Shown here: positions 47,439 through 64,000 of the stretch, in pieces
Numbering within the stretch: the stretch's first letter is position 1
Layout of the letters: each line of letters starts with the position of its first letter
Notes under the pieces: model-generated
The model's input: the letters and a program-made list of their open reading frames with translations, nothing else
Database searches by the model: none
What the model was told of the DNA's origin: nothing
NCBI RefSeq assembly: GCF_902168435.1
Contig: NZ_LR656165.1
Coordinates: 124,001-188,000, forward strand
Direction: 5' to 3'
Source of the DNA: Bacillus marasmi
GTDB taxonomy: Bacteria; Bacillota; Bacilli; Bacillales; Cytobacillaceae
Length of the DNA: 64,000 nucleotides
Position numbers and translations under genes: made by a program

Positions 47439-48064
47439 TGACCACCGCCCCCTTGTAATTCAGCTAACTCTTGACTATTAATAATATCTCGATTTAATGT
47501 GACTGAGTATTGTCCTGTATAACGCGGGACTAAATTCTCAGAAGTTGCTTCGATTTCATTGCCAGCAGCATCTACTTCTTTTACATCAGCTGTTGCAATG
47601 GATGATAATGTGGCAGCATTAATCCAATCAGCATCTAGTAAAGTTTTATAAAAGTAAGCCGCTTCTCGACTGCTATCAAACTGTACTGACATAGTAACTG
47701 TACCTGTTTCTGCATATGAAATATTCTGTATAAAGCCACGTTCAGGTAACAGTGCCACAACACGTTTTAAAATTGGAGCTGATTTTAACGGCTCATCATT
47801 TGACCATTTCACCGCACTGTCAAGTTGAGCATAGGACTCTGTACCAAGTTTATTTTTATCAAGTTTCGCCTGTTCAGCTTGGACGAGCTTTTGTGTAGCT
47901 GAAATTTGACTATTCAGGCTATTCAACTCATTCTTTAAGGAATTACCTTGCCAAAGGATGAGGAGTCCTGCTAAAAGCAAAATGACGAGTGCTGAACTGA
48001 TAATCACCAAAAACGCAGTACTTTTTGGGTCTTTTTTCGGCAGCAGGTTAATTTCTACTAGCAT
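47435..48064 (-). CDS. pilN: Type IV pilus protein PilN-like
   Basis: A 209-residue bitopic protein beginning MLVEINLLPKKDPKS. The INLLP motif at the cytoplasmic N-terminus is the known PilM-binding signature of PilN. A single membrane helix (FLVIISSALVILLLAGLLIL) and a coiled coil (LKNELNSLNSQISATQKLVQ) precede the extracellular domain. It ends in a glycine-rich tail. It starts 2 bp after pilM and overlaps pilO. Confidence 0.87.
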   Translation of the reverse strand: MLVEINLLPKKDPKSTAFLVIISSALVILLLAGLLILWQGNSLKNELNSLNSQISATQKLVQAEQAKLDKNKLGTESYAQLDSAVKWSNDEPLKSAPILKRVVALLPERGFIQNISYAETGTVTMSVQFDSSREAAYFYKTLLDADWINAATLSSIATADVKEVDAAGNEIEATSENLVPRYTGQYSVTLNRDIINSQELAELQGGGGQ

Positions 48065-48066
48065 GA

Positions 48067-49059
48067 CTACACCTCTTTTAATGCTAGTCCAAAGGCTAGA
48101 TAATGACTTCTAGGCAATGGTCTATTTTTCAAAGTTTCTAAATTATTGATATCGAGCATTTCAATCTTTACATCCAATCTTGCTTGGAGGGCCTGCTTAA
48201 TTTCCTCCAAAAATGGATTGTCACCAGTCATAACAATTTTGTTGATTTCATTTTTCCCTTGATGAAGAGAGAATTGATAAAAATCAATCAGTTTATTAAC
48301 TTCCTTAATCGCTTCATCAAATTGATCCTTTAATTCATCAACATCTCCAATAAAGGTTGGCTGTTGAAAACCGGTGCGACCAATGCGAATATCCCAATCG
48401 TTTTCATCATAGTGGAAATGATGATGCCTCATAAAGAATGGTATTTCATTTTCAAAAATACTCATGACAACTAAGTCCAAGTCAAATTGAAGCACTAATA
48501 TTTTTTCATCTTTTTTCTGCTTATTAATTAAATTGTAAAGCCGATATAATGCCAATGATGATAGGTCAACAGCAGAAGGATTCAATTTCAAATCAGAAAA
48601 TAAATCAGAATACTGCATCACATACTCCCGATTTGCCGCAAATAACAAAATTTCCCGCTTTTCAATATCCTTCGGAAGGGCAAGATAATCAAATATCGGG
48701 TCCTCAAAAGGTAGATGGATGCTTGCACCGATTTCTAGGTTTAAATAACCAGTGATTTCATCATGCTCAACATCATCAGGTAACGCGAGCTTACGGATAG
48801 TAACATAGGAATCCGGTGCTAAGAAACGAACCTTTCGACGACGTATTTTCCAAGCATCTATGCACTCATCCAAAATTACCGCTAATGTATCTTCATCAAC
48901 AATTTTGCCTTCCTTCACCAGTCCTGGTGGCAAATAACGTTCTCCCCATCGAACCGGAATTGGCGGGTTCCCAGGTTTTATTTCAATATAACGAATACAG
49001 TGATCATTTATTATAATATCTATCGGCCGACTACCAACCGATAGGCGGGGTAAACCCAT
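48067..49059 (-). CDS. pilM: Type IV pilus actin-like protein PilM
   Basis: A 330-residue cytoplasmic actin-fold protein of the PilM/FtsA class that binds the PilN tail. Family segments are IRYIEIKPGNPP, PPGLVKEGKIVDE, VRFLAPDSYVTIRKLALP, and a conserved PSAVDLSSLALYRL. The nucleotide-binding motifs are less canonical than in proteobacterial PilM, as in other Gram-positive forms. AAAGGGGGTTGG precedes the ATG. It is the first of the pilM-N-O set, separated from pilD by a dispersed repeat. Confidence 0.85.
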   Translation of the reverse strand: MGLPRLSVGSRPIDIIINDHCIRYIEIKPGNPPIPVRWGERYLPPGLVKEGKIVDEDTLAVILDECIDAWKIRRRKVRFLAPDSYVTIRKLALPDDVEHDEITGYLNLEIGASIHLPFEDPIFDYLALPKDIEKREILLFAANREYVMQYSDLFSDLKLNPSAVDLSSLALYRLYNLINKQKKDEKILVLQFDLDLVVMSIFENEIPFFMRHHHFHYDENDWDIRIGRTGFQQPTFIGDVDELKDQFDEAIKEVNKLIDFYQFSLHQGKNEINKIVMTGDNPFLEEIKQALQARLDVKIEMLDINNLETLKNRPLPRSHYLAFGLALKEV

Positions 49060-49264: not shown

Positions 49265-50011
49265 CTATGTAAAAAATAAATTTAAATACGTTTGAATAAT
49301 AGTATCCCCAAAGTAATAAGCCACTAACGTTCCTATCGCAATAAATGGTCCGAATGGAATCGGCTTGCCTTTTTTGACAAGTTTTAGCGCCATTCCGAGC
49401 AGCCCAAAAACTGCCCCAAATAAAGTTGATAAGAAAAATGATAATAATAATGTTTTGACCCCCACAACAAACCCAATCAGTGCGAACAGTTTAATATCTC
49501 CGCCACCCATACCGCCTTTGCTAACAATCGCGATGATGAGCAAAAGCCCAAAGCCGATTCCTGCCCCCAACAAGGAATCCCACCATGGAGACAGCGGAAT
49601 AAACAAACGTTCCAATAAAAAAATCCCTACGAAAACGAGTAATACTTTATCAGGGATAATCATATAAGCTGTGTCGGAAACAAGGATGATAATAAACAGT
49701 GAAATCAAGGTTAACGCAATAATTAATTCACTGCTCCAACCAACGACTAGTGGAGCTGTCGCAAACAAAACTCCAGTTAGGAACTCAATGATTGGATAAA
49801 CAGGAGAAATGCCCGTCTTGCAGACGCGGCATTTCCCCCCTTGCAAAAGATATGACAGAACCGGAATCAGTTCCAAAGCTCTAAGCTGATGCCCGCATGT
49901 CGGACATGCTGAGCGGGGTGAAACGATTGATTGACCTTGTGGCACTCGGAGTCCGACTACGTTATAAAAGGAACCTAGTAGGAGTCCATACATAAAAATA
50001 ATTATTGTCAT
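49265..50011 (-). CDS. pilD: Prepilin peptidase/N-methyltransferase (PilD/ComC type)
   Basis: A24-family aspartate protease, 248 residues and about eight membrane helices. It cleaves and N-methylates type IV prepilins. The cytoplasmic loop has a Zn site with CPTC and CRVC pairs. The catalytic aspartates are in VSDTAYMIIPD and the GxGD-type motif GGGDIKLFALIG. In B. subtilis the single prepilin peptidase gene comC occupies this neighbourhood near spoIIB, so this enzyme may serve both this pilus and any ComG pseudopilus. Confidence 0.95.
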   Translation of the reverse strand: MTIIIFMYGLLLGSFYNVVGLRVPQGQSIVSPRSACPTCGHQLRALELIPVLSYLLQGGKCRVCKTGISPVYPIIEFLTGVLFATAPLVVGWSSELIIALTLISLFIIILVSDTAYMIIPDKVLLVFVGIFLLERLFIPLSPWWDSLLGAGIGFGLLLIIAIVSKGGMGGGDIKLFALIGFVVGVKTLLLSFFLSTLFGAVFGLLGMALKLVKKGKPIPFGPFIAIGTLVAYYFGDTIIQTYLNLFFT

Positions 50012-50033: not shown

Positions 50034-50456
50034 TTAAGAACCTGTGACACGTTCAGCAGTATCAATAGTTTGCATTGTATCATCTTCAAACTTTACTTTT
50101 ACATCACCTTTTACACCAGTTCCTGAAATAGTAAGATTACCCCCAACCTCTTTCACTGTATAAGCAACACTTCCAGTTCCAGTAAAAGTGGTAACGTCAT
50201 CGATATATGGCCCTAATTCATCTTCATCTACTGCAGTTGCCCCGATATTATGACCTTCAGCTTCATATAGTTTAGCTGCGTTTAAAATTAATTTTGCATC
50301 AGCTTTAATTGCATTTTCCCTAGTATTATCAATAATTGATCCTATCGCTGGAATCGCAATCGCTGCAATAATCCCCAAAATAACGATAACAGCTAGTAAT
50401 TCGATTAAGGTGAAGCCTTTTTGATTTTTAAGACGTTGTTTTAATTTTTGTAACAT
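50034..50456 (-). CDS. pilA: Major type IV pilin (PilA/ComGC-like)
   Basis: A 140-residue prepilin. The leader MLQKLKQRLKNQKG is cleaved before FTLIELLAVIVILGIIAAIA, with Glu at mature position 5. The soluble domain (NAIKADAKLILNAAKLYEAE) has no cysteine pair. The ATG at 50456 follows AAGGGAG. It probably has its own promoter, which fits high expression. It is the only pilin inside the motor gene run, hence the likely major subunit. Confidence 0.9.
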   Translation of the reverse strand: MLQKLKQRLKNQKGFTLIELLAVIVILGIIAAIAIPAIGSIIDNTRENAIKADAKLILNAAKLYEAEGHNIGATAVDEDELGPYIDDVTTFTGTGSVAYTVKEVGGNLTISGTGVKGDVKVKFEDDTMQTIDTAERVTGS

Positions 50457-50514
50457 AATGTTTCTCTCCCTTTCATTATTATATTGATAGTATTTTTTGT
50501 CTTCTATCACCTAG

Positions 50515-50563: not shown

Positions 50564-51775
50564 TTACAACTGATCAACGTGCTGGAACATATCGAACATC
50601 GGCGTCATTATCGCTAATACAATGACCCCGACCATCCCCGCTAAAAAGACAATCATCAATGGTTCGATGAGCGCTTTAATTTGATCCGTTGCCGTTTCCA
50701 CCTCCTGCTCATAAAAATCAGCAACCTTAGATAGCATCGTATCAAGGGATCCTGTCGTTTCCCCAATGGCAATCATTTGTGTTACCAATGGTGGAAAGGC
50801 CCAGTGCTTAATCATTGGTGTCGTTAATGAATTCCCTTTGCCCAACTCATCCCTGGATTCGCGAACAACTTTGGAAATGACTTCATTTTCGACTACTTTT
50901 TCACAGGCAGCTAGCGCTTGTAGAATCGGAACCCCACTTGAAAATAGAGAGCTAAGTGTCCGACTTAACCTTGCTAGTGCTGCTTTTTGCTGCATTTTGC
51001 CAAATATCGGCATTCTTAGTGCAGCATAATCAAGATAGTATCTAGTTTTTGGATTTCCTCTCATGGCAACAAAACCAAAGATGATTCCAATAAATATGAG
51101 AAGGACAAGCCACCAAAACTTTTGCATGAATTTACTGGCGTCCAAAACAAACTGTGTAATAACTGGTAAATCAGCGCCCATATCTTCAAACATTGACACA
51201 AACGTTGGGACAACCGATGTTAATAGGAAAATCACAACACCAATCGCGATTATCCCAATAACCGTTGGATAAGATAGAGCAGATTTTACTTTTTGACGGG
51301 TGTGATGTTGTTTTTCGAAGAATACTGCTAAACGCTCTAAAGTTTCTTCCATATTACCGCCAACTTCACCAGCTTTTACAAGGTTAATAAACATCGAGGA
51401 AAATACCTTTTTATGCTTTTCAGCAGAATCAGAAAACGGACGTCCCATCCGTAATTCATTCTCGATATCCAATAGTGCTTTGCGAAGCGCTTTACTTTCG
51501 GTTTGTTCAGCAAGGATTGAAGTTGCATCAACAATCGTAACCCCCGCTTTTATTAGTGTGGCAAATTGCCGTAAATATATGACCATATGCTGAAGCTTAA
51601 CTGGATTACCAAATTGAATATCCTTCGTTAATGCCGTTTCCGGTACTTCCTTCATTTCTAGGACACGGATTCCATCGCCACGAAGCTTTTCAATTGCTTC
51701 ACGCTTTGATGGAGCATTCAGCGTCCCAGTCCTCTTCCCTTTTCGGTCTCGACCTGAATATTTATATCTCGCCAT
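50564..51775 (-). CDS. pilC: Type IV pilus inner-membrane platform protein PilC
   Basis: A 403-residue platform protein of the GspF/PilC family. There are two homologous cytoplasmic domains (FATLIKAGVTIVDATSILAE and LSSLFSSGVPILQALAACEK) and three main membrane segments (VIGIIAIGVVIFLLTSVVPT, LVLLIFIGIIFGFVAM, LAGMVGVIVLAIMTPMF). The N-terminus MARYKYSGRDRKGKR is typical. Its ATG directly follows the pilT stop codon. Confidence 0.96.
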   Translation of the reverse strand: MARYKYSGRDRKGKRTGTLNAPSKREAIEKLRGDGIRVLEMKEVPETALTKDIQFGNPVKLQHMVIYLRQFATLIKAGVTIVDATSILAEQTESKALRKALLDIENELRMGRPFSDSAEKHKKVFSSMFINLVKAGEVGGNMEETLERLAVFFEKQHHTRQKVKSALSYPTVIGIIAIGVVIFLLTSVVPTFVSMFEDMGADLPVITQFVLDASKFMQKFWWLVLLIFIGIIFGFVAMRGNPKTRYYLDYAALRMPIFGKMQQKAALARLSRTLSSLFSSGVPILQALAACEKVVENEVISKVVRESRDELGKGNSLTTPMIKHWAFPPLVTQMIAIGETTGSLDTMLSKVADFYEQEVETATDQIKALIEPLMIVFLAGMVGVIVLAIMTPMFDMFQHVDQL

Positions 51776-52816
51776 CTAAATCACCGGATCTTTCATATAA
51801 GGCTGAGCTTCTTCCCTTGAAATCGAACCGTTCAAGATGAGCTCCTTAATACTTGCATCAAGCGTCTGCATACCTTGTGCCCGTGATGTTTGCATGACAG
51901 ATTCAATTTGTGGAATTTTATCATTGCGAATTAAATTGGCAACTGCGGCATTATTTACGAGAATTTCCAGCGCTGCACGTCTTCCATTCCCATCAACCGT
52001 TTTAAATAAACGCTGAGAAATAATGGCAACTAATACAGTCGCAAGCTGGGTGCGAATTTGCGGCTGATGTGCAGGCTCAAACACGTCGATAATCCGCTCG
52101 ATTGACGCCGGTGCACTCGATGTATGTAAGGTTCCAAATACTAAGTGCCCTGTTTCCGCTGCGGTAATTGCGATTTGAATCGTCTCCAAATCCCGCATCT
52201 CGCCGACAAGAATCGAATCTGGATCTTGACGAAGCGCAGCTCGCAAAGCATTCGCAAAGTTCTTAGTATCAAAACCAACTTCTCGCTGGTCAATAATTGA
52301 AGTTCCATGTTTATGCAAAAACTCAATTGGATCCTCTAGCGTGATAATATGATCACGCTTCGTATGATTCATATGATTAATCATCGCCGCCAAGGTGGTC
52401 GATTTTCCACTACCAGTTGGACCTGTCACTAAAATCAGACCTTGCGGCTTTTCCGTTATTTTCGCGCAAATTTCAGGCAAATTCAGTTCTTCGATTGTTG
52501 GAATATTTGTTGGAATCGTCCGAATTGCTATCGCAATACAGCCCCGCTGTTTAAACGTATTCACACGATAACGAGAAACATCTGGAATCGCGTAGGAAAA
52601 GTCTAATTCTCCTAGTTCCATAAAGCGCTCCCACATACCCTCTGGTACAATTTCTCGCGCTAGTGCCTCTGTGTCCTCTGTACTTAGCACTTCTTTTCCA
52701 TAACGTTTTAATTCGCCGTGCAACCTGAAAATAGGAGGCACGCCAACCGTTAAATGAATATCAGATGCCTTAAGCTCAAAGGCAGCTCTTAATAAGTGAT
52801 CTATTCTCTCTTTCAC
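51776..52816 (-). CDS. pilT: Pilus retraction ATPase PilT
   Basis: A 346-residue hexameric ATPase that depolymerises pili. It starts at a GTG (52816) behind AGAGGTG. Walker A GPTGSGKSTTLAAMI, Asp box ITLEDPIEF, Walker B ILVGEMRDLETI, His box HLVFGTLHTSSA. The C-terminal AIRNLIRE-type motif is replaced by AVANLIRNDKIPQIES, as in PilT proteins. Its presence means the pilus is probably retractile. Confidence 0.96.
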   Translation of the reverse strand: MKERIDHLLRAAFELKASDIHLTVGVPPIFRLHGELKRYGKEVLSTEDTEALAREIVPEGMWERFMELGELDFSYAIPDVSRYRVNTFKQRGCIAIAIRTIPTNIPTIEELNLPEICAKITEKPQGLILVTGPTGSGKSTTLAAMINHMNHTKRDHIITLEDPIEFLHKHGTSIIDQREVGFDTKNFANALRAALRQDPDSILVGEMRDLETIQIAITAAETGHLVFGTLHTSSAPASIERIIDVFEPAHQPQIRTQLATVLVAIISQRLFKTVDGNGRRAALEILVNNAAVANLIRNDKIPQIESVMQTSRAQGMQTLDASIKELILNGSISREEAQPYMKDPVI

Positions 52817-52827
52817 CCCATGCACCT

Positions 52828-54486
52828 CTATTCAGAAATGGCTACTTTAAGGACTTCCTCGGTCGTGGTTAAACCTTGTTTCACCTTAAGTAAGCCATCA
52901 TCAATCAAGAAAATGGTTTTATTTTTGATCGCAATTTGTCTTAGCGTCGTTGCTGAATCATCCGTCATAATCGCACGGCGCATTTCCTCATTGATCGTAA
53001 CAATCTCATGAATCGCAAGGCGCCCTTTATAACCGGTCATATTGCAGGAAGCACAACCATGCCCACGCATTACCTTATCAATTTTTAAACCACGGCTCGC
53101 AAAAATTTCCTTTTCGCGCTCAGTCGCATCTTGTGGTTTTCCACAATCACGACACACTTTACGAATTAGCCGCTGTGCGACAATGCCTGCGAGCGAGGTT
53201 GCCACAAGAAATGGTTCCATCCCCATATCAATTAAACGGTTAATCGAGCTTAACGCATCATTCGTATGCAAGGTACTTAAGACCAGATGCCCGGTTAAAG
53301 AGGCTCGAATTGCCACTTCAACTGTTTCCTTATCACGAATCTCCCCGACCATGATAATATTCGGGTCTTGGCGGAGAATCGAACGTAACCCTGTTGCAAA
53401 TGTCATCCCGATATTAGAGTTAACTTGAATCTGACTAACACCTTCAAGCTGGAATTCTACCGGGTCCTCAATCGTAATAATGTTAACCTCTTCGCTGTTT
53501 AATTTATTTAAAGCAGCATAAAGTGTGGAGGACTTACCTGAACCAGTTGGCCCGGTGATTAAGACAATGCCATTAGGTCGTTCAATCATTTTATTAAAAC
53601 GATTAAGATTCAGCTTGTTGAAACCAAGTTTGTCTAAATCGATAAGAGCATTCCCTAAATCAAGAATCCGCATAACGATTTTCTCGCCATGAACGGTTGG
53701 TAATGTCGATACCCGCAAATCTACCGGATACACATTAAGATTAATCTTAATCCGTCCATCTTGTGGAACCCGGTTTTCAGTAATATCTAAATTAGACATA
53801 ATTTTTATTCTAGCAGTTAAAAAGCTTTGCATATTCTTCGGCAGAACACGCTCAACCCTTAAAATACCGTCAACACGATAGCGAACTAGCACTTTCGTTT
53901 CATGCGGGTCAATGTGAATATCACTAGCCTTTTGCATAACCGCATTGGAAAGAATTTGATTTACGAGTCTAACAATCGGAGAATCCTCGTCTGTTATTGT
54001 TTCGTCCTTATTGTCACCGTTTTTATTTCCTTCATTAAATTCATCGAATTCTTCATCGATATCATAGTACTTATTGATAGCGCGAACGATATCATCCTTT
54101 GTTGCAAGCACTGCTTCAACTTGGAAGCCCGTTGCTAGACGCAAATCATCAATCGCAAAGAAATCCATAGGATCTGCCATCGCGACAAAGAGCTTGTCCC
54201 CATCTTTTTTAATAGGGATTAATAAATTCCGCATCGCTGCTTCTTTAGGCACTAACGAGAACAAATTCGTTTCAAACGGATAGCCATATAAACTGATATG
54301 CGGAATGCCTAATTGCACTTCAAGAACTTCAATAAGCTGCTGCTCAGTAATATATCCTCGCTGTAACAATGCGTCGCCAAGCCGTTGTCCTTGAGGTTTT
54401 TCCTTCAAGGCCGTTTGCAGTTGCTCTTCTGTAATAAGCCCCGCCTCAACCAATAAATCACCTAGCCGCTTACGCGGTTGCTTCAT
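52828..54486 (-). CDS. pilB: Pilus extension ATPase PilB
   Basis: A 552-residue assembly ATPase. The N-terminal MshEN/GspE-N domain has two tandem RLGD(A/L)L...G.ITE.QL motifs (residues 7 and about 35). The catalytic core has Walker A GPTGSGKSSTLYAAL, Asp box ITIEDPVEF, Walker B IMVGEIRDKETV and a His box HLVLSTLHTND. The tetracysteine zinc motif CRDCGK...CASCNMTGYKGR distinguishes extension ATPases from PilT. It is 11 bp upstream of pilT. Confidence 0.96.
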   Translation of the reverse strand: MKQPRKRLGDLLVEAGLITEEQLQTALKEKPQGQRLGDALLQRGYITEQQLIEVLEVQLGIPHISLYGYPFETNLFSLVPKEAAMRNLLIPIKKDGDKLFVAMADPMDFFAIDDLRLATGFQVEAVLATKDDIVRAINKYYDIDEEFDEFNEGNKNGDNKDETITDEDSPIVRLVNQILSNAVMQKASDIHIDPHETKVLVRYRVDGILRVERVLPKNMQSFLTARIKIMSNLDITENRVPQDGRIKINLNVYPVDLRVSTLPTVHGEKIVMRILDLGNALIDLDKLGFNKLNLNRFNKMIERPNGIVLITGPTGSGKSSTLYAALNKLNSEEVNIITIEDPVEFQLEGVSQIQVNSNIGMTFATGLRSILRQDPNIIMVGEIRDKETVEVAIRASLTGHLVLSTLHTNDALSSINRLIDMGMEPFLVATSLAGIVAQRLIRKVCRDCGKPQDATEREKEIFASRGLKIDKVMRGHGCASCNMTGYKGRLAIHEIVTINEEMRRAIMTDDSATTLRQIAIKNKTIFLIDDGLLKVKQGLTTTEEVLKVAISE

Positions 54487-54509: not shown

Positions 54510-55862
54510 TTATTTTGTCTGCTCATTTGGTTTGCCAAATAAATCTTCGTCATCTCCGGTTTGCCCCGGAGTAGGTTGTGTAGGTGTCACACCATTATTA
54601 TTACCATCACCAGAAGGAGTAGTTCCCGGAGTTTGCGTACCCGGAGTAGTTCCCGGAGTTGTCCCAGGATTTGCATTCGGATCCCCGGTACCGTCTGACG
54701 CAGGTGGTGGCGGTGCCGTTAATTTATGAACTTCAATTCTATGAATTGGTGGATAAAAATCCTCTGAAATGAAATCATCTCGAAGCCATTGATTACTCTC
54801 GCCATATACAGAGCGATATACCTTAATCAATAACCCGTTCTTTCCATTTTGCTTAACCATCATTGAAGTATTCATATTCGGATGAAATTGAATAATCGTC
54901 TTCGGCTCAAACTCCTTACGATCAACTAATTTCACCTTATATTGATTAAGGAAAGTGCTACCTGTTAGTTTGGCCATTAAAGTATTGCCGTCTAATTGCA
55001 ATTCAATTTCATAATTGATCTCGTTCGGATTAGCGAAAATGAAATCAAGATGGTTTTGGTAATCCACTTTAGCTTCAAAACCTAATTCTAAATAATCAGG
55101 TAAAACCTGACCTGTATGCTTCTCGATAGTATTAAAATTGCTTGAAAGTATCGCTTGATACATAACCGAAGCAATCATACTAGCAGCTTCAGATGGGAAG
55201 GTTGTAAACTGTCTTTGTTCCATTAAGCTTAATAGAGAAACCTGTTTCCCAGCTTCTACTTTTATCGGTGAAAGCTCTTCTACCAACACCCCTAGTTCAA
55301 TTGGTAAATATTCAGGGGTAATTGAGGCTTCACTAATGATTTCATGATCATTTACAGCCGTACTCAAGTATTTTTCAACCTTTACGACCTGTTCCCCACT
55401 TTTGAAATTTGCTCCTATACTAACAAGTTCATTAAGCATCGGATCCGTTTTGACTTTTGAATTATCAAGTTCATTTGAAAGAGACTGTAGGTACTGATAC
55501 ATATCTCCTGACTTGAAGGTAACGGTCACTTCATTTTGCTGACCATCCTGTGCCATTTCGACACTGTTTTCCAAATCAAATAGGAATTGGGCATTATCAA
55601 CAGGTACAGAGTTTTCCTTATATTGCAAACTAATGTTAGTTTGGGAACGCCAGTTTTGCATTTTTTCAGAAAGTAATGCGATTGCCTCATCCTTTGTTTT
55701 TTCCGAAACATCAACAGGTCCAATCATTGTCCCTGCACCAAATTTAGCGCCATCCGTAGTAATTGCTTCATAGGCAGAAGCGCCAAAATGTGAAAAACTA
55801 AATATAAATGCCGTACAAATAAATAACACAATAAAGAGCTTAACCTCTTGTTTCTTCCTCAC
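54510..55862 (-). CDS. VanW-type exported protein with a Pro/Thr/Gly-rich tail
   Basis: A 450-residue exported protein. The start is a GTG at 55862 behind GAGGGTGGGG. A signal peptide (FIVLFICTAFIFSFSHFGA) is followed by a putative peptidoglycan-binding domain (GTMIGPVDVSEKTKDEAIAL) and a VanW-like domain (FTTFPSEAASMIASV, LPDYLELGFEAKVDY). A C-terminal Thr/Pro/Gly repeat tail (PGTTPGTTPGTQTPGTT) may span the wall. It lies within the pilus operon, 23 bp before pilB, so it may anchor the pilus or open the wall for it. That role is inference. Confidence 0.8.
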   Translation of the reverse strand: MRKKQEVKLFIVLFICTAFIFSFSHFGASAYEAITTDGAKFGAGTMIGPVDVSEKTKDEAIALLSEKMQNWRSQTNISLQYKENSVPVDNAQFLFDLENSVEMAQDGQQNEVTVTFKSGDMYQYLQSLSNELDNSKVKTDPMLNELVSIGANFKSGEQVVKVEKYLSTAVNDHEIISEASITPEYLPIELGVLVEELSPIKVEAGKQVSLLSLMEQRQFTTFPSEAASMIASVMYQAILSSNFNTIEKHTGQVLPDYLELGFEAKVDYQNHLDFIFANPNEINYEIELQLDGNTLMAKLTGSTFLNQYKVKLVDRKEFEPKTIIQFHPNMNTSMMVKQNGKNGLLIKVYRSVYGESNQWLRDDFISEDFYPPIHRIEVHKLTAPPPPASDGTGDPNANPGTTPGTTPGTQTPGTTPSGDGNNNGVTPTQPTPGQTGDDEDLFGKPNEQTK

Positions 55863-55917
55863 ATACCCCACCCTCTTACTTGCAGTTGATATAAGTTAAT
55901 CCGTAAACGAACTGTTA

Positions 55918-56958
55918 CTATTGCTTAACCATAGTATTATCTTCAACTGCCGGCTTATGTTTCTCTTTTCCTTTTTCTACACTTTCTGTTTCTACTGAAT
56001 CATTTTTTGCTAAATCCATTTCATCTAGCTCGAATTCGTCATTTAACCATAATGGTGGTGGAGCCTTTTCTAGATCAATACTTGTTTTTGATTCGAACTC
56101 TTCGTTTGACTCAAGCATTTCTTCTACGTTTAACATAGGTAGTTGCACGTCATTAATTGAAGCTTCTTGGTTTGGTTCTAGTTCTCCCGTCTCGATATCA
56201 TGCTCAATTTCACTTATGTATTGAAGAGAATCTTCTTGTTGATTTTGTGCCGTCTCCATTTCTTCAGCAATTTCCTCTGTTTTGTGAATGATTGCTTCAA
56301 TATCTGGATCAGCCACTTCTTCCTGTCCGTTATGTACAAACGCCTCAATTTCCGAATCCACATTAGCAAAATAATTCGTGTGTTCTGCAACAGGTTCTTC
56401 GGACTCTGGTTTATCCAGCTCCACATCCTGTTTAGAATCTTCTGGTTTTTCTTCGTGTGGCACGATATCTAGGACAATCTCCTCTAATTCATGTTCCCCG
56501 TGACTCACATCTGCTTTTTCTTGAGTTGATTGATCATTTGACACTAATTTTTCAAGCAATCCCAAATCTTGATTTTGCGCCAAATCTTCAAGCTTACCTT
56601 TTGGATTTTTTTCAGAAACAGCAATGTAGGTGTAGCTCGGCTTGATGTCATGCTTCGGAATCTCTTCCGCTTCATCTTCCTCTGCAATTGCAAAAGGGTC
56701 GACATCCACCTCTGGCACATACATCCATTCCTGATTTCGTTTACTCATTAAATAGGCTAATGAGCTAACGAACAGCAGCAAGATTAATGCTGTTTGCCAC
56801 ACCGGAAAAATCGCTACCGAAATTAACCCGAATACCCCGATTAACAATGATGCCAAAACAACAAAGACTTTCCCCTTAAAGGTAAAGCCCATTGGTAGAA
56901 AATACAGTATCGGAATCAAGATGAGCAATGCTATTCCAGCAAATACGTAACTCTCCAT
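55918..56958 (-). CDS. Membrane protein with long acidic cytoplasmic tail, pilus-associated, unknown
   Basis: A 346-residue protein starting at the ATG at 56958 (AGGGGTGG site). Three hydrophobic segments fill residues 2-70 (SYVFAGIALLILIPILYFLP, VFVVLASLLIGVFGLISVAI, TALILLLFVSSLAYLM). The remaining 270 residues are strongly acidic (EEDEAEEIPKHD, SKQDVELDKPESEEP) and probably disordered, ending GKEKHKPAVEDNTMVKQ. No family is recognised. It lies between minor pilins and the VanW-type gene, in the same direction. Confidence 0.72.
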   Translation of the reverse strand: MESYVFAGIALLILIPILYFLPMGFTFKGKVFVVLASLLIGVFGLISVAIFPVWQTALILLLFVSSLAYLMSKRNQEWMYVPEVDVDPFAIAEEDEAEEIPKHDIKPSYTYIAVSEKNPKGKLEDLAQNQDLGLLEKLVSNDQSTQEKADVSHGEHELEEIVLDIVPHEEKPEDSKQDVELDKPESEEPVAEHTNYFANVDSEIEAFVHNGQEEVADPDIEAIIHKTEEIAEEMETAQNQQEDSLQYISEIEHDIETGELEPNQEASINDVQLPMLNVEEMLESNEEFESKTSIDLEKAPPPLWLNDEFELDEMDLAKNDSVETESVEKGKEKHKPAVEDNTMVKQ

Positions 56959-57156
56959 TTTTCCACCCCTATCGAAAAATAGATTTGCCAATCCCATCCT
57001 TATTATTCAACGAAATATGACAATATATGACTTTCGTTATAATTGTATAATATTTGATATTTTTTTAAAAGAACTTTTAATAAAATAATTATTTTAATTT
57101 ACTAATAATGAGAATATTTAGCATTTATACTAAAATAACATTAAATACCAAAAATG

Positions 57157-58080
57157 TTATTTATATTCTGCTTTGATAATTATTTCATCGCGATTCCAGT
57201 TAGCACCTAAAGGCGTGTGGTAATATTCCTCAGCAATGATTCCTGTTGTTCCGTTATTTATTTCCGTTGCACAATCAAGTGGTTTTTTTATTTGTGGAAT
57301 CGGAGTAGGAGGATTAGGTCCATATACATACAACTTCCCCTTTACACACATAAGCGCGTTCTTCCCATCCTCGTGATGTAATTGAATATCAAACACATGA
57401 GCATCTTCGTTGATAGTAATATAAGTACCACTGTTGGTGGTTGTAATAGAGCCAAGCGATACAATCCCCTTTGAAAAACGCAATACATCTTTTTCATTTG
57501 TTCCTTTATATGAAAAACCATTGGCAAAATAATATTCCTCAGATTGGATCGTATCAGAATCCTTGTGTGTGTATGCTGGATCCTCATTTACATAAACATA
57601 TTCATCAGATCTATATTCAGGGAATTCATTAATCACAGCTACCGGAGCCTCAATTGTTCCTTCTATCGAAAATTCTTCATTATTGGTTAATCCAGTTGAT
57701 TTGAAGGCAATAGTCACTCTTTCAATTTTCCCAATGTCATTTAACGGTGTAGTGGTTACGATCAAATCACTAACTTTATAGCCAACTCCCTCACTTATCT
57801 CATATACTTGATTGTTGATACCTAAAAACTTAATTTCCAAAAGGGTTTTAACATTGGATGGCGTAATTACCGTATTATTTTCAACTAAAGTTTGATAAAC
57901 CATTTCTTTTAAGTGGAGTACTCCCATTTCTGCCAAATTCGTCGCTTGCAAGTTCTCACCAGTTTTCGAAAGTTGCAGTGTCGTCGTTCCATTTAATGCC
58001 ATCAGACTTAAACCGATAATCGAAAAACTAGCAATGATCAATAACACAAGTACTAAACTTGCTCCATGTTCATTACGCAT
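57157..58080 (-). CDS. Minor pilin-like protein X of triplet C
   Basis: A 307-residue PilX-like protein. MRNEHG-ASLVLVLLIIASFSIIG is a class III-type prepilin N-terminus without the usual mature Glu5. After it comes the marker LAEMGVLHLKE shared with the two other X proteins in the window. The C-terminal half has GSITTTNSGTYITINED and a cysteine motif, ALMCVKGKLYVYG, with a second Cys in KPLDCATEI. It ends IIIKAEYK. Last gene of triplet C, 6 bp after its W gene. Confidence 0.78.
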   Translation of the reverse strand: MRNEHGASLVLVLLIIASFSIIGLSLMALNGTTTLQLSKTGENLQATNLAEMGVLHLKEMVYQTLVENNTVITPSNVKTLLEIKFLGINNQVYEISEGVGYKVSDLIVTTTPLNDIGKIERVTIAFKSTGLTNNEEFSIEGTIEAPVAVINEFPEYRSDEYVYVNEDPAYTHKDSDTIQSEEYYFANGFSYKGTNEKDVLRFSKGIVSLGSITTTNSGTYITINEDAHVFDIQLHHEDGKNALMCVKGKLYVYGPNPPTPIPQIKKPLDCATEINNGTTGIIAEEYYHTPLGANWNRDEIIIKAEYK

Positions 58081-58086
58081 GATTTT

Positions 58087-58515
58087 CTACACTCCTCTTG
58101 ATAAGGTCGTCCTAAGCGTGTAGCTATCATTTCCATTTATTATCGTTAGCTTTATCATTACCGAAGCCATGCTGTTCACGATAACTTCCTGATTCGTTTC
58201 GTATATACCATCCTTAAACTGAATTTCCGCACTATAATCATATTTATCTGAGACCGTTACTCCGTTTAAAACAATTCTGTCTGCGTATACGGTTAAATTG
58301 TATGTAGTCGTTTCATTGTATTCATTTTTACTCAAATACTCTTTTCTTAGCAGCGTAGCAATATAATTAGCTTCCTGTTGGAGGCTAACATCCCTCTTTG
58401 TATCCTCGCCTTGTTTAAACCCAGTCATATAAATCGACGTCGCAATCGTAACAAATAAAGTCGTTAACAATAGACCTGCCAATAATTCAATGAGGGTAAA
58501 TCCATTCCGTTTCAA
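58087..58515 (-). CDS. Minor pilin-like protein W of triplet C
   Basis: A 142-residue prepilin. MKRNG-FTLIELLAGLLLTTLFVTI has the full class III signal with Glu5. The following VSLQQEANYIATLLRKEYL resembles the QQEAN segment of the other W proteins. The C-terminus (SYTLRTTLSRGV) matches the ETVLSRLKSGD-type ends of W proteins. It starts at a TTG overlapping the V stop by 4 bp. Confidence 0.85.
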   Translation of the reverse strand: MKRNGFTLIELLAGLLLTTLFVTIATSIYMTGFKQGEDTKRDVSLQQEANYIATLLRKEYLSKNEYNETTTYNLTVYADRIVLNGVTVSDKYDYSAEIQFKDGIYETNQEVIVNSMASVMIKLTIINGNDSYTLRTTLSRGV

Positions 58516-58970
58516 TTGAGTTCACCCACTTCTTTGTAACCGTATGTTCGATATACTTCATCGAGTTCTCCTTCTTTTTCTTCTTCAACGATTACCGTAA
58601 TAAGCCTAAGCTTATCTAAAGCATAGGGTGTACCTGTTTCAGTTTGTTGCTTTACTTCATTATTCGCTTGACTGATAAGTACTTTTGGGAAGTAGCGGTG
58701 ATTGTTTACAACGATTCCTTGTGTAGAATCAAATCCAATGAGGCCTTCTAATTGGGCTGAGGTTAGCGTCGTGTCAAAATCAGACTCTCGCACTTTTATG
58801 AGGATTTCTTGGCTTAATTGACTTGCTGTGCCAATGCCTTTATTAATTTCAACATGGGTTCTATTTTGGAGAAAGTAACCTAAAAATACCGAAAATACAA
58901 TTGATAAAATCGTAATTGATAGAAGGATTTCAAGCAGCAAATATCCGTTTTCATTTTTTAATGGACACAT
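58512..58970 (-). CDS. Minor pilin-like protein V of triplet C
   Basis: A 152-residue prepilin-like protein: NENG-YLLLEILLSITILSIVFSV. Glu5 of the mature protein is present. Length, order and a C-terminal ELDEVYRTYGYKEVGE resemble the V proteins of triplets A and B. The ATG has AGGAGGAAG upstream. It is first in a run that continues into pilB-pilT-pilC, so it may head the whole pilus operon. A 306-bp AT-rich divergent region separates it from triplet A. Confidence 0.82.
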   Translation of the reverse strand: MCPLKNENGYLLLEILLSITILSIVFSVFLGYFLQNRTHVEINKGIGTASQLSQEILIKVRESDFDTTLTSAQLEGLIGFDSTQGIVVNNHRYFPKVLISQANNEVKQQTETGTPYALDKLRLITVIVEEEKEGELDEVYRTYGYKEVGELN

Positions 58971-59276
58971 GACTACTTCCTCCTATTTATTTTCCTAAAA
59001 ATATATTTACCACTTTTATAATAGCAAATCCCGATAAAAAATAATCTACTTTAAACAATTTCTCTGACATAATATTTACTTAATTTCCATAACTATACGA
59101 AAAACTACCTCAACCTCTTACCTTACTATTAAAATAGTTAATCAAGTAGGACGTATGATATACTAACAAAAGGAAAGTAAGATTAATTTTGGTATTTTAA
59201 TATACATATTTTCAGCAACTTTAATATGATGAAATTCGTCAATGCAATTTGTTTCGCCTTTGAAAGGAATGATTTT
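58971..59276. other. Divergent AT-rich intergenic region between triplets C and A
   Basis: About 306 bp, very AT-rich, that must hold promoters for both directions. TATGATATACT near 59155-59165 is the best plus-strand -10, and TATTATAAAA near 59015-59030 the best minus-strand one. Neither has a convincing -35. No gene seen. Confidence 0.4.
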
Positions 59277-59741
59277 ATGATAATAATCCGTTCACAAAAA
59301 GGTGTTACCCTTATTGAAGTGATCGCATCCATTACAATCTTATCGATTGTGTTCATTAGCATTATTAACTTTTTTCCACAAATGGGCCTCATGAACACCC
59401 AAAATGAAGAAAAGATAGAAGGAGTTAATTATACGAAGCAATTATTGGTTAAATGGAAAAACTCCGAGGAAGTACGCGAGCTTGTTCCTGATAAGTTAGA
59501 AAATCTTGCAAAAACGAAGGAAAACTCTTCTGACTATATTTATTATGATGATGTTCTTAAAAATGAAGATTATATTACCTTTAAGACGACAAGGAATAAT
59601 TTGAACATAGAAATACACATTTATACAACTGATGAACTGAATACCTCATCTGGAGCCTATCAAATTCATGTTCTAGCCAAAGATAAAAGAGGAAATCTCA
59701 TGAGTGAATCATTTGGATATGTCATGTCAAAAATTAGGTGA
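59277..59741 (+). CDS. Minor pilin-like protein V of triplet A
   Basis: A 154-residue prepilin: SQKG-VTLIEVIASITILSIVFIS. It is homologous to the triplet B V protein: both have INxFPQMGxxNxQNExK at the end of the helix, a KQ(L/I)LV(K/E)W segment, and a C-terminal (Y/H)QIHV...ESFGY. The ATG at 59277 (GAAAGG site) is preferred over an ATG 17 codons upstream. First gene of the only plus-strand triplet. Confidence 0.85.
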   Translation: MIIIRSQKGVTLIEVIASITILSIVFISIINFFPQMGLMNTQNEEKIEGVNYTKQLLVKWKNSEEVRELVPDKLENLAKTKENSSDYIYYDDVLKNEDYITFKTTRNNLNIEIHIYTTDELNTSSGAYQIHVLAKDKRGNLMSESFGYVMSKIR

Positions 59742-59750
59742 TTATTAATT

Positions 59751-60188
59751 ATGAGAAATGAACGGGGTATCACACTAGTTGAAAGTCTTGCTGCACTTAC
59801 AATTCTCTCGATTATCGGGGTTATTATTTGGAATGTATTTTTCCAAGGCTATAATTTTTCCAAAAATGCAGCTTCAAAAAACATGATGCAGCAAGAGGCA
59901 AATATTATTATTGCCCATTTAAACCGAATCCATCAAACTGCTGTATCTTATAAAATTTCTATTCCTGAAAATGGCACTATAGAGATTACTGTAAATGAAC
60001 GGAATCACTCCACAAGGAAGGTTTTATTTAAAAACTCACAGCTCCTTTTTCAAATAAATAAGATTGGAAAAATAGATCCAAAAAACGATGATATTGATTT
60101 AATTATTACTATAAAAGATAAAAACAATCCTGATAATTTCGTAGAAGTTGAGACTTTATTGTATCGACTCAAAGGGGGCGGAAGCTAG
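59751..60188 (+). CDS. Minor pilin-like protein W of triplet A
   Basis: A 145-residue prepilin: MRNERG-ITLVESLAALTILSIIGVI. It aligns closely with the triplet B W protein: both have TILSIIGxxIWNVFFQGYxF, QQEAN and a C-terminal VE(V/T)xTLLYRLKGG / ETVLSRLKSGD. It lies 9 bp after V. Its stop overlaps the X start by one base. Confidence 0.87.
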   Translation: MRNERGITLVESLAALTILSIIGVIIWNVFFQGYNFSKNAASKNMMQQEANIIIAHLNRIHQTAVSYKISIPENGTIEITVNERNHSTRKVLFKNSQLLFQINKIGKIDPKNDDIDLIITIKDKNNPDNFVEVETLLYRLKGGGS

Positions 60189-61480
60189 TGAAGGAATCAA
60201 GTAACGAAAATGGCTACTCACTAATAACCATCCTACTATTCATAACGATATTCACAATTATTTTCCTATCCTTCATTGGATATTCTTTTAATACTGTTAA
60301 ACACAACAAAGTAGTGGAAACGCAAACTAAAACAGTTACATTAGCAGAAATGGGAGTCTCGTTTATTCAAACAGCCATTACTGACATATATCACGCCAGG
60401 CAAACTGAAGTAGACAACTATATATTAGCGGAAATCCAAAAGGATAACCCGGTAAAAACAAATGATGAATATACGAATTTAGCTATCAATAAAACCGCTA
60501 CCTACCTCCAAGAAGATATAAAAAATTATTTGGGATATGATCCTAACGTAAATCCAGTTTTACAAAAAGATATTAATTCAGATTCAGCTTACTTCATTAA
60601 TAACTTCACGATTAATAGCGACACCGATAAAAATGAAATAAGAATTAGTTTTGATAGCACAGGAACTGATGGAGAAAAAAAATCTCCTATTAATTCTGAA
60701 ATGATTATTCAGTTATCACCTAAAATGGATAATGATAGTGGTATCCACCTTGGGATCAAAATCCCAAATTTTAATCAGATTCTAAAACCCGATGGATGTA
60801 ATTCTGATGTTTGTGGCGACTTAATTGAACTTGTCGATGGAGTATTGGATTGGATTGTTAATAATTTAAACAATGTAACCAATAAAACGATTTACTCGAC
60901 TCATGGAATTGATTTAGATAAAAACGATAATATCAACAGTTCTGAGAATTTAAAAATGCATGCTGTTGGCACTATAAATATTGCTGGCAATATGAATAAC
61001 GCTTTAAATTTACTGCTAGAGACCCAGTCTGATGCCATATTTGGAAGTCAGTTACGTACAGAAGGAAATTCTAAGCTTTTCATTAAAAATAATATGATAA
61101 CACAAGGGAATACAGATATTGATCATAACAGCTTAGTTTATGTGGGAAATGATTTAACAAACAATAAGCACTTAAATCTTAAGGGGGATTCATCAACTTA
61201 TGTTGAGGAGACCGCAAAGGTAAATGATATGCTTAATATAAGTTCAAATGCAAAAATGTGCGTGAAAAACAATGTTGAATTAACAAATTTAAGCAATATC
61301 AATATTGATAGCAGTATAGGTTTAATTGTGAATGGAAAGATTTTATTAAACGGGTATGAGTACAAGGATTCTATTCGTGGGGTCAAGGTTGGACCAGAAA
61401 TATACAATCAATTATGTGAGCCCACTCTTCCGTATGAGTGGGCTAAAGAAATAGAGAATAATGTGAACTATTCCTATTAG
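60188..61480 (+). CDS. Large minor pilin-like protein X of triplet A
   Basis: A 430-residue protein starting at a GTG that shares a base with the W stop. The N-terminus NENG-YSLITILLFITIFTIIFLS is prepilin-like but lacks Glu5. It is followed by TLAEMGVSFIQTAI, the X marker. Residues 250-400 have repeated strand-turn units (SKLFIKNN, SLVYVGNDL, STYVEETAKV) suggestive of a beta-helix. Cysteines are in GCNSDVCGD, KMCVKNNVEL and YNQLCEPTLP. It ends NNVNYSY and is followed by a strong terminator. Confidence 0.8.
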   Translation: MKESSNENGYSLITILLFITIFTIIFLSFIGYSFNTVKHNKVVETQTKTVTLAEMGVSFIQTAITDIYHARQTEVDNYILAEIQKDNPVKTNDEYTNLAINKTATYLQEDIKNYLGYDPNVNPVLQKDINSDSAYFINNFTINSDTDKNEIRISFDSTGTDGEKKSPINSEMIIQLSPKMDNDSGIHLGIKIPNFNQILKPDGCNSDVCGDLIELVDGVLDWIVNNLNNVTNKTIYSTHGIDLDKNDNINSSENLKMHAVGTINIAGNMNNALNLLLETQSDAIFGSQLRTEGNSKLFIKNNMITQGNTDIDHNSLVYVGNDLTNNKHLNLKGDSSTYVEETAKVNDMLNISSNAKMCVKNNVELTNLSNINIDSSIGLIVNGKILLNGYEYKDSIRGVKVGPEIYNQLCEPTLPYEWAKEIENNVNYSY

Positions 61481-61482
61481 TT

Positions 61483-61522
61483 GAGGTTATGGACAAGAGT
61501 TATCCATAACCTCTTGTTTTTA
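61483..61522 (+). terminator. Terminator after triplet A
   Basis: GAGGTTATGGA / TCCATAACCTC arms followed by TTGTTTTT, directly after the X stop. Confidence 0.92.
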
Positions 61523-61537
61523 CATATTTTATTAATA

Positions 61538-61556
61538 TGTTGGTACAGGTACCACA
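61538..61556. other. Small palindrome between convergent triplets A and B
   Basis: TTGGTAC-AG-GTACCA(C)AA, an almost perfect palindrome downstream of triplet B on its strand. It lacks a T run, so it is a poor terminator. Confidence 0.4.
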
Positions 61557-61584
61557 ATTGCTTTTAGATATATTACTTTTATTA

Positions 61585-63036
61585 TTAATAGCTATAATCA
61601 AACTTCGGAGAAATTTCCAATGAACCCCAACTGATAATCTCTGTCATTGTTGGTGGAGGTGCGTTGTTACGTTTACATGCATTTTCAAAATCAGTTGGAT
61701 TGGTATTAACTGTTGATGCGCTTTTGGTGTATGTCGATGATTTAGCATATATTTTACTTGAAGTATCTTTATTGATGTTAACATTGTGTTTTGGATCAAA
61801 CTTACCATCTACACATAAAACCGCATTATTGTTTAAATTTATTGCATCATCAACGTCCGTATAACCCTTAATATGGAGAGTTGAATTATTTAATGTAAAA
61901 CCCTTTTTCAAATATGTGTCATCTTCAATATAAAGCTTCGAGTTATTACTAAGGTTTAACGTCTCATGGAAATTCACCTTCACGGTATTGCTCGGATCTC
62001 CTTTAATATATAGGAATGAATTATTAAGAGAAGTATTTTTCTTAAAGTCAGCATTTCCTACATATATCTTGGAATTCCCCTTAATATCCACAACCTTATT
62101 GAAATCGGCAAAACCTGTAATATAGAGGTTTGAATAGTTTTCAATCGTCAACCCGTCAGAATTTGAAAACTTAATATCGCCGCCAACAAATAGATTACTT
62201 TTTGTAATTTTTACTGATTTTTTAAAATCCACATCGTTTTCCACATAAACAGTCGACTCCGAGATTGGATTATTCATATTTCCATTAACGTCTAACGATT
62301 TAACTTTGACTGTCGATTTATTAAACTTCAAATCGTTGAAATTGTTTGGAGTTACAATATCACGTAAATCAAGGCAGGATTTACCGCTATAATCAAAGTT
62401 GTTCGAAAACGTACAGCCAATCGTAATCGTATCTGGAAAAGTAATTTTTAATGAAGGAGGAAGTTGAACGATATTTTCAGGTTGCCCAGTACCTTGTTCA
62501 ACACTTTGCACCATTGTAACAAAATTGGAGAAGTTAATTGTTACACTGGCAGTTATTTCTGAAGGTTTGCCATTGTTGTCACCAATGCTCTTAGCACTGA
62601 CAACTAGCTCCTGGCCTGATACGTTTTTTGTAAAAGTGATTGATTCAAGTTTAAATGAGGCATTTTCGTTATTTTTTATAGGAACAGTCAGTGGCTTAAT
62701 TTCATCATCCAATTTATCTATTAATATATCAATTGCGCGTTCTGTATAATGTCCTTCTGGGTTTTCGATATTGCCGTTGGTTGCATGCTCTGCTTCTACT
62801 ATTGTAGTTACTTGATTTATAAGGTTATTCGAGGCATTTTTTACAGCATGCTCAAAATACCTCGCTCCCATCTCAGCCAACTCAACTGATTGAGATTTGC
62901 TTTCTACAACAACGTTTTGCTTAGCACCTGTGAACGCGTTTGACACTAACGCTAAAGAAAGTACGCCAAAAACAATGATTGTCAATAAAACAGTTATCAG
63001 CGCATAACCTTGATTATTTTTTAAAATATCTTTCAT
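61585..63036 (-). CDS. Large minor pilin-like protein X of triplet B, beta-helix repeats
   Basis: A 483-residue protein. NNQG-YALITVLLTIIVFGVLSLA is prepilin-like without Glu5, followed by the X marker ELAEMGARYFEHAV. Residues about 240-450 contain eight to nine repeats of roughly 20 residues with the pattern NSxLYIxG.xDFxKxVxI (SNLFVGGDIKF, SNLYITGFADF, SKIYVGNADF, SKLYIEDDTY), strongly suggesting a right-handed beta-helix. Cysteines are in IGCTFSN, KSCLDLRD, VLCVDGKFD and ENACKRNN. It ends KFDYSY, like the triplet A protein. Confidence 0.82.
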   Translation of the reverse strand: MKDILKNNQGYALITVLLTIIVFGVLSLALVSNAFTGAKQNVVVESKSQSVELAEMGARYFEHAVKNASNNLINQVTTIVEAEHATNGNIENPEGHYTERAIDILIDKLDDEIKPLTVPIKNNENASFKLESITFTKNVSGQELVVSAKSIGDNNGKPSEITASVTINFSNFVTMVQSVEQGTGQPENIVQLPPSLKITFPDTITIGCTFSNNFDYSGKSCLDLRDIVTPNNFNDLKFNKSTVKVKSLDVNGNMNNPISESTVYVENDVDFKKSVKITKSNLFVGGDIKFSNSDGLTIENYSNLYITGFADFNKVVDIKGNSKIYVGNADFKKNTSLNNSFLYIKGDPSNTVKVNFHETLNLSNNSKLYIEDDTYLKKGFTLNNSTLHIKGYTDVDDAINLNNNAVLCVDGKFDPKHNVNINKDTSSKIYAKSSTYTKSASTVNTNPTDFENACKRNNAPPPTMTEIISWGSLEISPKFDYSY

Positions 63037-63039
63037 TCT

Positions 63040-63468
63040 TTAATCACCACTCTTTAATCTAGATAGGACTGTCTCTATGGTTACTTTATTTTGTTCATCA
63101 TTTTTATCTGCGGCAATTAAGGTAAAATTTAGATTTTCAATATCTGGATTGACGTTTTTATTACCGCTAAAGTTGGATTTTAAACAAATTTGCGGATTCT
63201 TTAAGACAAGTGTATCAGAACTATTCGCTAGCTTAATTTCGCAGTTCGATACAGTAATTTGATATGAATTTGCTGAACCTCTATGGAAATTCATCATCGA
63301 AGTTATCGCAACATTGGCTTCCTGCTGGATCTGACTTTTTTTAATAGTTTTGCTCGAAAATTGATAGCCTTGAAAGAAAACATTCCATATCCCCATACCA
63401 ATAATTGAAAGGATAGTGACAGTAGCTAATACCTCGAGAAGAGTAATTCCTTTTTCATTGTGATACAT
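63040..63468 (-). CDS. Minor pilin-like protein W of triplet B
   Basis: A 142-residue prepilin: NEKG-ITLLEVLATVTILSIIGMG. It is the clear paralogue of the triplet A W protein (IWNVFFQGYQFSSK, QQEANVAITSMMN) and contains one cysteine pair (SNCEIKL, PQICLKS) absent from its paralogue. It starts 3 bp after the V stop, and X follows 3 bp after it. Confidence 0.87.
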   Translation of the reverse strand: MYHNEKGITLLEVLATVTILSIIGMGIWNVFFQGYQFSSKTIKKSQIQQEANVAITSMMNFHRGSANSYQITVSNCEIKLANSSDTLVLKNPQICLKSNFSGNKNVNPDIENLNFTLIAADKNDEQNKVTIETVLSRLKSGD

Positions 63469-63471
63469 ATC

Positions 63472-63927
63472 TTATTCCCCCAAGACCAGATAACCAAAGC
63501 TTTCGCCAACCAAGACATTTTTATTATTTTTTAACTGCACATGGATTTGATGTACCTTTGTTGGACCTGATTTTGCAATGCTAGCATCGAGGTCTGAATC
63601 CTTAGCAATTTTTACAACGACTTTTTCGTCATCGCGTGTTGCTTCTGATATATAGTATGTATCCTTTTCCTCCAAATACGCTGGCTTCGAATACATTATT
63701 GGATTGCTGAGATAGTTGATTACTTCGGTGTCCTCTTGCCATTCAACAAGTATCTGCTTCGCTGTATTGATTCCCTGTAATTTGGTTTCATTTTGTTGAT
63801 TTAAAAAACCCATTTGCGGGAAAATATTCATTATTGAGATAAGAATGAGGATTAATATTGAAATGGAAATAAGGACTTCAAGGAGTGAAATTCCGTCTTG
63901 ATTCAATACCCCTATCAATTTTTTCAT
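63472..63927 (-). CDS. Minor pilin-like protein V of triplet B
   Basis: A 151-residue prepilin: NQDG-ISLLEVLISISILILILISI, Glu5 present. It is the paralogue of the triplet A V protein (NIFPQMGFLNQQNETK, VHQIHVQLK, GESFGYLV). The ATG at 63927 follows GAGGTGATG. It heads triplet B; the 73 bp to the window edge are AT-rich and probably contain its promoter. Confidence 0.85.
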   Translation of the reverse strand: MKKLIGVLNQDGISLLEVLISISILILILISIMNIFPQMGFLNQQNETKLQGINTAKQILVEWQEDTEVINYLSNPIMYSKPAYLEEKDTYYISEATRDDEKVVVKIAKDSDLDASIAKSGPTKVHQIHVQLKNNKNVLVGESFGYLVLGE

Positions 63928-64000
63928 CAGCATCACCTCACTATCTTTATTATTATTTCTTTTTAATTATTTTTTTAATATAACACTAATATATCGCTTT

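Follow-up and report, generated by a model that had tools for sequence, protein, structure and literature searches.

Five V-W-X minor-pilin cassettes and a single type IV pilus machine in Bacillus marasmi: candidate alternative tip complexes

The window studied here is a stretch of 64,000 nucleotides of Bacillus marasmi (assembly GCF_902168435.1, contig NZ_LR656165.1, positions 124,001 to 188,000, forward strand). It carries a type IV pilus (pil) operon and, next to it, three cassettes of minor-pilin-like genes, A, B and C, each made of a V, a W and a large X gene (Table 1). Both folC and the pil operon lie on the minus strand; between them, starting at folC, stand B in the direction of pil, A in the opposite direction and C again in the direction of pil, followed by TMac, the VanW gene, pilB, pilT, pilC, pilA, pilD, pilM, pilN and pilO. 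The initial annotation had described nine prepilin-like genes in three modules of constant order, and the list of open reading frames (ORFs) of the window agrees: all nine are present, uninterrupted and in that order. The ORF strands also confirm that A and B converge, X_A running toward X_B. The cassettes have a G+C content of 0.30 to 0.36, the pil genes of 0.37 to 0.44. Just past the end of the window, between cassette B and folC, a direct repeat occurs three times with a 53-base spacing (L009:4361-4570).

The initial annotation spoke of a triple set, which holds for the locus; the genome (G000) contains five V-W-X cassettes in total, as D (locus L010) and E (locus L011) lie complete on other contigs. 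When the prepilin methylation motif was searched in this genome, it was found at 12 places: PilA, three ComG proteins and eight V or W genes. A W profile recovers five full-length W, the remaining matches being weak (the strongest at 2.9e-6, covering 46 of 150 positions). The genome also has a ComG set with its own minor pilins, and an additional PF00437-family ATPase on contig C30. As for the neighbours of the orphan cassettes, E adjoins genes for a methyl-accepting chemotaxis protein (MCP) and CheW (L011:818-3617, L020, L062, L063); L020 also has a CheB-like ORF, and genes for CheA-like, MCP and flagellar proteins lie further upstream, the names being partly given by eye. On the contig of D, an ORF (L010:11738-13582) with a long Asp-Ala dipeptide run and an LPNTA-like end has the look of a wall-anchored surface protein.

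Table 1. Features of the pil locus and of the two orphan cassettes (plain coordinates refer to the window).
Feature	Position	Strand	Assignment and basis
V_B	63472..63927	-	PilV/GspI/ComGE role; GTG at 63936 is an alternative open start
W_B	63040..63468	-	PilW/GspJ/ComGF role, mainly from position; W tree
X_B	61585..63036	-	cap prepilin without Glu5; C-terminal part a predicted beta-helix
Inverted repeat + T-run	61483..61513	.	between X_A and X_B; 11-bp stem, 9-base loop, by eye
X_A	60188..61480	+	cap prepilin lacking Glu5, with a large C-terminal part; X tree
W_A	59751..60188	+	PilW/GspJ/ComGF role, mainly from position; W tree
V_A	59277..59741	+	PilV/GspI/ComGE role; ORF, V tree
V_C	58512..58970	-	PilV/GspI/ComGE role, Glu5 present; ORF, V tree; orthologues in L014, L042, L047
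W_C	58087..58515	-	PilW/GspJ/ComGF role, mainly from position; Glu5 present; W tree
X_C	57157..58080	-	cap prepilin without Glu5; ORF, X tree
Promoter-like element CTTTTAAA-N11-TATTATACAAT	57042..57071	-	upstream of pil operon
TMac (name given here)	55918..56997	-	membrane protein, acidic tail by eye; first gene of pil operon; no Pfam match
VanW-domain protein	54510..55871	-	domain match
PilB extension ATPase	52828..54486	-	PF00437
PilT retraction ATPase	51776..52825	-	PF00437
PilC platform protein	50564..51775	-	putative, from sequence
PilA, sole major pilin of pil locus	50034..50510	-	N-methylation motif / family matches
PilD prepilin peptidase	49265..50011	-	putative, from sequence
PilM, PilN, PilO	46608..49059	-	putative, from order and sequence
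Cassette D	L010: V 8431-7967, W 7968-7495, X 7472-6465		complete, other contig
Cassette E	L011: V 8084-7653, W 7656-7093, X 7073-5244, second X 5154-3685		complete, other contig

Across the cassettes of all types, the glutamate at position 5 of the mature prepilin (Glu5) is present in 51/51 V and 54/54 W and in none of 59 X, in which the hydrophobic segment follows a Gly. This pattern is the mark of tip complexes of the PilI-J-K or GspI-J-K kind, with X as the cap. The order is as constant: in all 55 cassettes W is followed by X, and a V with intact start precedes W in 51 (the V of L026 being short), the other four comprising three cut by contig ends and a broken one (L015); L056, a different kind of locus, is excluded from cassette-order and locus counts. 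The family models speak more softly. PF07963 scores above its cut-off in V_A, W_A, W_B, W_C, V_D, W_D, V_E and W_E; in V_B and V_C it stays below, the motif being visible by eye, so that in the nine genes of the window the sole Pfam matches above cut-off are those of this motif to V_A, W_A, W_B and W_C, V_B, V_C and the X having none. Matches of the NCBIfam models ComGE, ComGF, PilV, GspI and GspJ to the proteins of the window all fall under the curated cut-offs, including those of V_A, V_B and V_C to PilV and GspI. At E <= 0.01, 30 of 36 V match PilV and 18 of 36 match GspI; only 2 of 37 W match GspJ, and the role of W rests mainly on its position. PilX_N matches 9 of 37 X, among those of the window only X_C (E 0.38). 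No H subunit (FimU/GspH) is seen among the genome's 12 matches to N_methyl, a search that also misses V_B and V_C and could thus have missed an H subunit too.

The X proteins are mostly much longer than GspK, with a median mature length of 430 residues. In the structure predicted for X_B, a helix (residues 8-38) and two further helices are followed by strands (120-168), a low-confidence region (170-241) and a beta-helix (242-434), whose strands start at residue 242 and which is confident from about 270 to 450. This fold is common to adhesins and phage tailspikes. For the X_B model Z reaches 13.8, and Foldseek returned no match at E <= 0.001; the model of X_C was unusable (mean pLDDT, the per-residue confidence, of 43.7). 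Profile matches between X of different types extend into the C-terminal part, e.g. that of the D model on residues 184-254 of L032 (4e-11), which is compatible with a repeat fold common to the types. Besides, two type H cassettes have as a neighbour the gene of a large protein that combines vWA and Big_2 domains (L054:12182-16318, L055:2706-5546) and is possibly a PilY1-like partner; an ORF in L041 (5538-9017) has Big_2 without vWA.

Are the cassettes related beyond the prepilin helix? After removal of the first 30 mature residues, blastp relates A and B for all three genes (E 1.7e-9 for V, 4.7e-8 for W, 2.8e-9 for X), and the motifs reported earlier are there: FPQMG, QNE, QIHV and ESFGY in both V, IWNVFFQGY in both W. 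The same comparison gives nothing significant between C and A or B (best 0.60, for X of A and C; 4.4 and 4.5 for W; no match for V). Profiles of the soluble part of each type were run against the other types, other roles, PilA/ComG controls and shuffled sequences, where the background maxima for any model were 8.6e-3 for another role, 2.4e-3 for the controls and 1.3e-3 for shuffles. W of C is linked to AB in both directions (AB model on C 1.5e-6, 4/4; C model on AB 5.8e-6, 7/18). X of C is matched by the type G model (3.7e-11, 4/4) and the AB model (1.0e-4, 3/4), the C model reaching AB weakly (3.4e-2). V of C is tied through type D (1.3e-5, 3/3); directly against AB it gives 1.3e-3 (3/18) and in reverse 6.5e-2, on a par with the best shuffles (1.3e-3 for all models, 3.7e-2 for its own), so that not every type pair exceeds the background. 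Further same-role matches are clear (V, E on H, 1.5e-10; W, G on AB, 1.2e-6, 16/18; X, G on D, 2.9e-18), and type F, known from two genomes, matches no other type. Cassette C thus appears homologous to A and B at the profile level only. The markers LAEMG in X and QQEAN in W do occur in A, B and C as announced; they are not proper to these sets: over all types, 24 of 59 X have LAEMG and 21 of 54 W have QQEAN.

Relatives place these cassettes in a wider repertoire. A W profile built from 37 diverse cassettes and run on 193 genomes of the family, with at most 19 candidates scored per genome, matches at E 1e-9 in 161 of them and three times or more in 8, so that the abundance of sets, as supposed, is unusual; these counts are rough, a match not being necessarily a full cassette. 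The genome of the window has the most matches (six, i.e. its five W and, by exclusion, one cross-match). An earlier W profile from this genome alone, which favours it, matched 158/193 at 1e-6 and served to choose loci. Among 36 folC-pil loci, two hold at least three sets (G000, G002), three hold two (G010, G011, G108) and 31 hold one, L017, L031 and L058 of the latter finishing at contig ends. Of the 55 cassettes seven are untyped (L019, L037, L043, L044 on the minus strand, L045, L053, L058), and the 48 typed ones fall into at least seven types. In the genus, here five genomes, the folC-pil interval of G002 reads F, B, inverted A, C, so that the order B, inverted A, C is common to two species; G001 has F only; G003 has C only, with broken frames and with pilC and pilN also split; in G004 an inverted A lies next to folC, before the contig end. 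Orphans in the genus are E in G000, G002 and G004, D in G000 and G003, and an untyped one in G004. Between folC and the cassette, a diguanylate cyclase with GAF and GGDEF domains is found in L024 (6635-8347, by Pfam) and in many relatives, judged there by similar N-terminus, length and place; none was seen at this place in the genome of the window.

Orientation goes with type. The AB type is inverted relative to pil in 12/12 pil-locus copies of other genera (L036 and L060 being two further, orphan copies); A is inverted in G000, G002 and G004 (in G004 relative to folC). Types G (5/5) and H (6/6) and six untyped cassettes of pil loci (L058 relative to folC) are inverted as well, whereas B (2/2), C (5/5), F (2/2), D (1/1, plus two orphans) and E (2/2, plus six orphans) follow the direction of pil. 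Cassette A, first taken for the inverted one, is thus the ordinary form, and B the flipped exception.

In the gene trees AB forms one clade of 19 (support 100/99 for W, 97/98 for V, 100/98 for X), and the remaining types also recur in the V, W and X trees, some with less support (E 94/92 for V and 84/94 for W; C 83/99 for W). This suggests that the triplet is mostly inherited as a unit. In the same direction, V, W and X distances among 49 triplets correlate at 0.80, 0.74 and 0.79 (0 of 2000 permutations), with incomplete agreement between genes, the nearest neighbour being identical in 26, 26 and 31 of 49. AB-type distances follow those of PilB moderately in 12 genomes (0.55, 0.60 and 0.46; 0, 0 and 2 of 2000 permutations), which points to a degree of vertical descent for this type. 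In all three trees cassette C sits in one clade with the lone C cassettes found in other genera; D and E belong to deep clades that also contain other genera, and F to a clade with G001. C, D, E and F are separate old types.

Upstream of the pil operon, the promoter-like element CTTTTAAA-N11-TATTATACAAT, unlike a plain sigma-A promoter, is exact in 10 of 20 family loci, within two mismatches in 16 and within four in 19, the pattern having been derived from the loci on which it was scored; none of 1000 shuffles has it within two mismatches. Its sole exact copy in the genome is the one before the pil operon, which therefore probably has its own promoter; read-through from cassette C into the operon is possible. 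The upstream regions differ from cassette to cassette. The inverted repeat between X_A and X_B, which an automated hairpin scan with a loop limit of 8 did not list, is a likely terminator of A; G002 has a different stem at the same place. Between G000 and G002, identity is 44 to 77% for the proteins of cassettes A, B and C and 52% for PilA, against 96% for PilB and 94% for PilT. The synonymous rate (dS) is computable for 10 of 16 cassette genes and exceeds the nonsynonymous rate (dN) in all ten, most dS being above 1 and saturated. Elsewhere in the window, between a SPOR-domain gene and maf, a membrane protein resembling by eye an O-antigen ligase (Wzy) is encoded (43811-45091), possibly for pilin glycosylation; a similar gene lies near valS in L028, L030 and L033.

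From this evidence, all at the level of sequence, we propose that a single PilB/PilT machine is served by alternative tip complexes, encoded by the V-W-X cassettes and having X as a grafted adhesin (probability about 0.6); alternative tips, suggested in the initial annotation, are a plausible reading. Each cassette would encode a tip complex priming the filament, of the PilI-PilJ-PilK or GspI-GspJ-GspK kind, V and W standing under a Glu5-less X which caps it. The single PilB/PilT/PilC machine and the single PilA would build the shaft below whichever complex is present, and the large outer domain of X, a predicted beta-helix in X_B, would contact the target, i.e. the work of PilY1 in two-membrane bacteria. 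As each cassette has its own upstream region, tips could be exchanged within a repertoire in which B, A and C occupy the folC-pil hotspot and D and E are orphans. Five sets of tip genes thus seem to serve one retractable pilus, whose grip could be changed without rebuilding the machine. A broader proposal, which we find a little less probable than its opposite, is that at least seven cassette lineages, mostly inherited as units and with type-specific orientation, move throughout a Bacillaceae-like family between the hotspot and orphan sites, any of them fitting one machine and one major pilin; as the Glu5-less cap itself would carry the adhesin, PilY1 would not be needed.

Other explanations deserve consideration. 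The initial annotation saw in the three sets one triplet repeatedly duplicated and inverted. A and B are indeed close in all three genes, the V tree unites the A and B of the genus (90/75), and a forced A+B clade survives the approximately unbiased (AU) test (p 0.125 and 0.103); however, the free concatenated tree joins B to other genera (80/97), the A/B likeness in DNA is limited to short stretches (best 86 bases at 72%), the inversion is the norm of the AB type, and C, D, E and F belong with other genomes as described. We thus hold sister sets born within the lineage to be quite improbable: for C, a separate type, duplication does not fit, and even for A and B the trees are divided. That the extra cassettes are without use, acquired and then retained by accident in a recombination hotspot, would agree with their low G+C, with their variable presence among the five congeners and with orphan sites that vary between species, but the frames are all intact in the genome of the window, dN remains below dS where computable (dS often saturated) and the order B, inverted A, C is kept in two species; it is the explanation we favour least.

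Perhaps only one cassette primes pil, while D and E, distant from it, and possibly others serve another type IV filament machine such as ComG, the ComG set and the ATPase of C30 offering candidates. However, ComG has its own minor pilins, and types D (L031) and E (L029, L044) sit within the pil locus of other genera (G010, G011, G178), which makes this unlikely. Finally all sets might be made together, giving a mixed pool of tips and bet-hedging rather than a switch. In favour of this, neither an invertible promoter nor a recombinase was noticed next to the cassettes, no search having been aimed at either; the differing upstream regions, on the other hand, lean to separate control without being decisive, and we regard a mixed pool as rather unlikely.

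How a single kind of pilus fulfils many tasks remains open. A machine with five natural tip sets, together with relatives holding single sets of the same types, would allow tips to be swapped directly, and three-protein tip sets without PilY1 are material for structural work in a one-membrane bacterium.

Among known systems, a pil operon adjoining com is described in Bacillales for Bacillus sp. NRRL B-14911 and Geobacillus; the part of that account available to us does not describe several minor-pilin sets (PMC3244431). The cassettes resemble PilHIJK and GspHIJK by the order I-J-K, by the Glu5-less cap and by the matches of V to PilV and GspI models; they differ in that the H subunit is not seen here and W matches GspJ in 2/37 cases only. 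The modular pilins of Streptococcus sanguinis form a single set. In these PilA-PilB-PilC pilins HIJK is replaced by fewer subunits, and the likeness lies in a one-membrane species with an adhesive domain grafted on a minor pilin (here predicted); the domains are others, and the sets here are five (PMC10191384). Myxococcus xanthus has three minor pilin/PilY1 clusters for one type IVa pilus machine, a PilX without Glu5, two PilY1 proteins reported to be oppositely regulated and a proposed exchange of tip modules (PMC7541494; PMC9109919). Several homologous minor-pilin sets per machine and a Glu5-less X are thus common to both. Each M. xanthus cluster also has FimU and PilY1, neither of which was found among the ORFs of cassettes A, B, C, D and E, which consist of one V, one W and one or two X only. 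Compared with what these reports describe, the present system has a Bacillus-like one-membrane host, five sets, an orientation specific to each type, and orphan cassettes.
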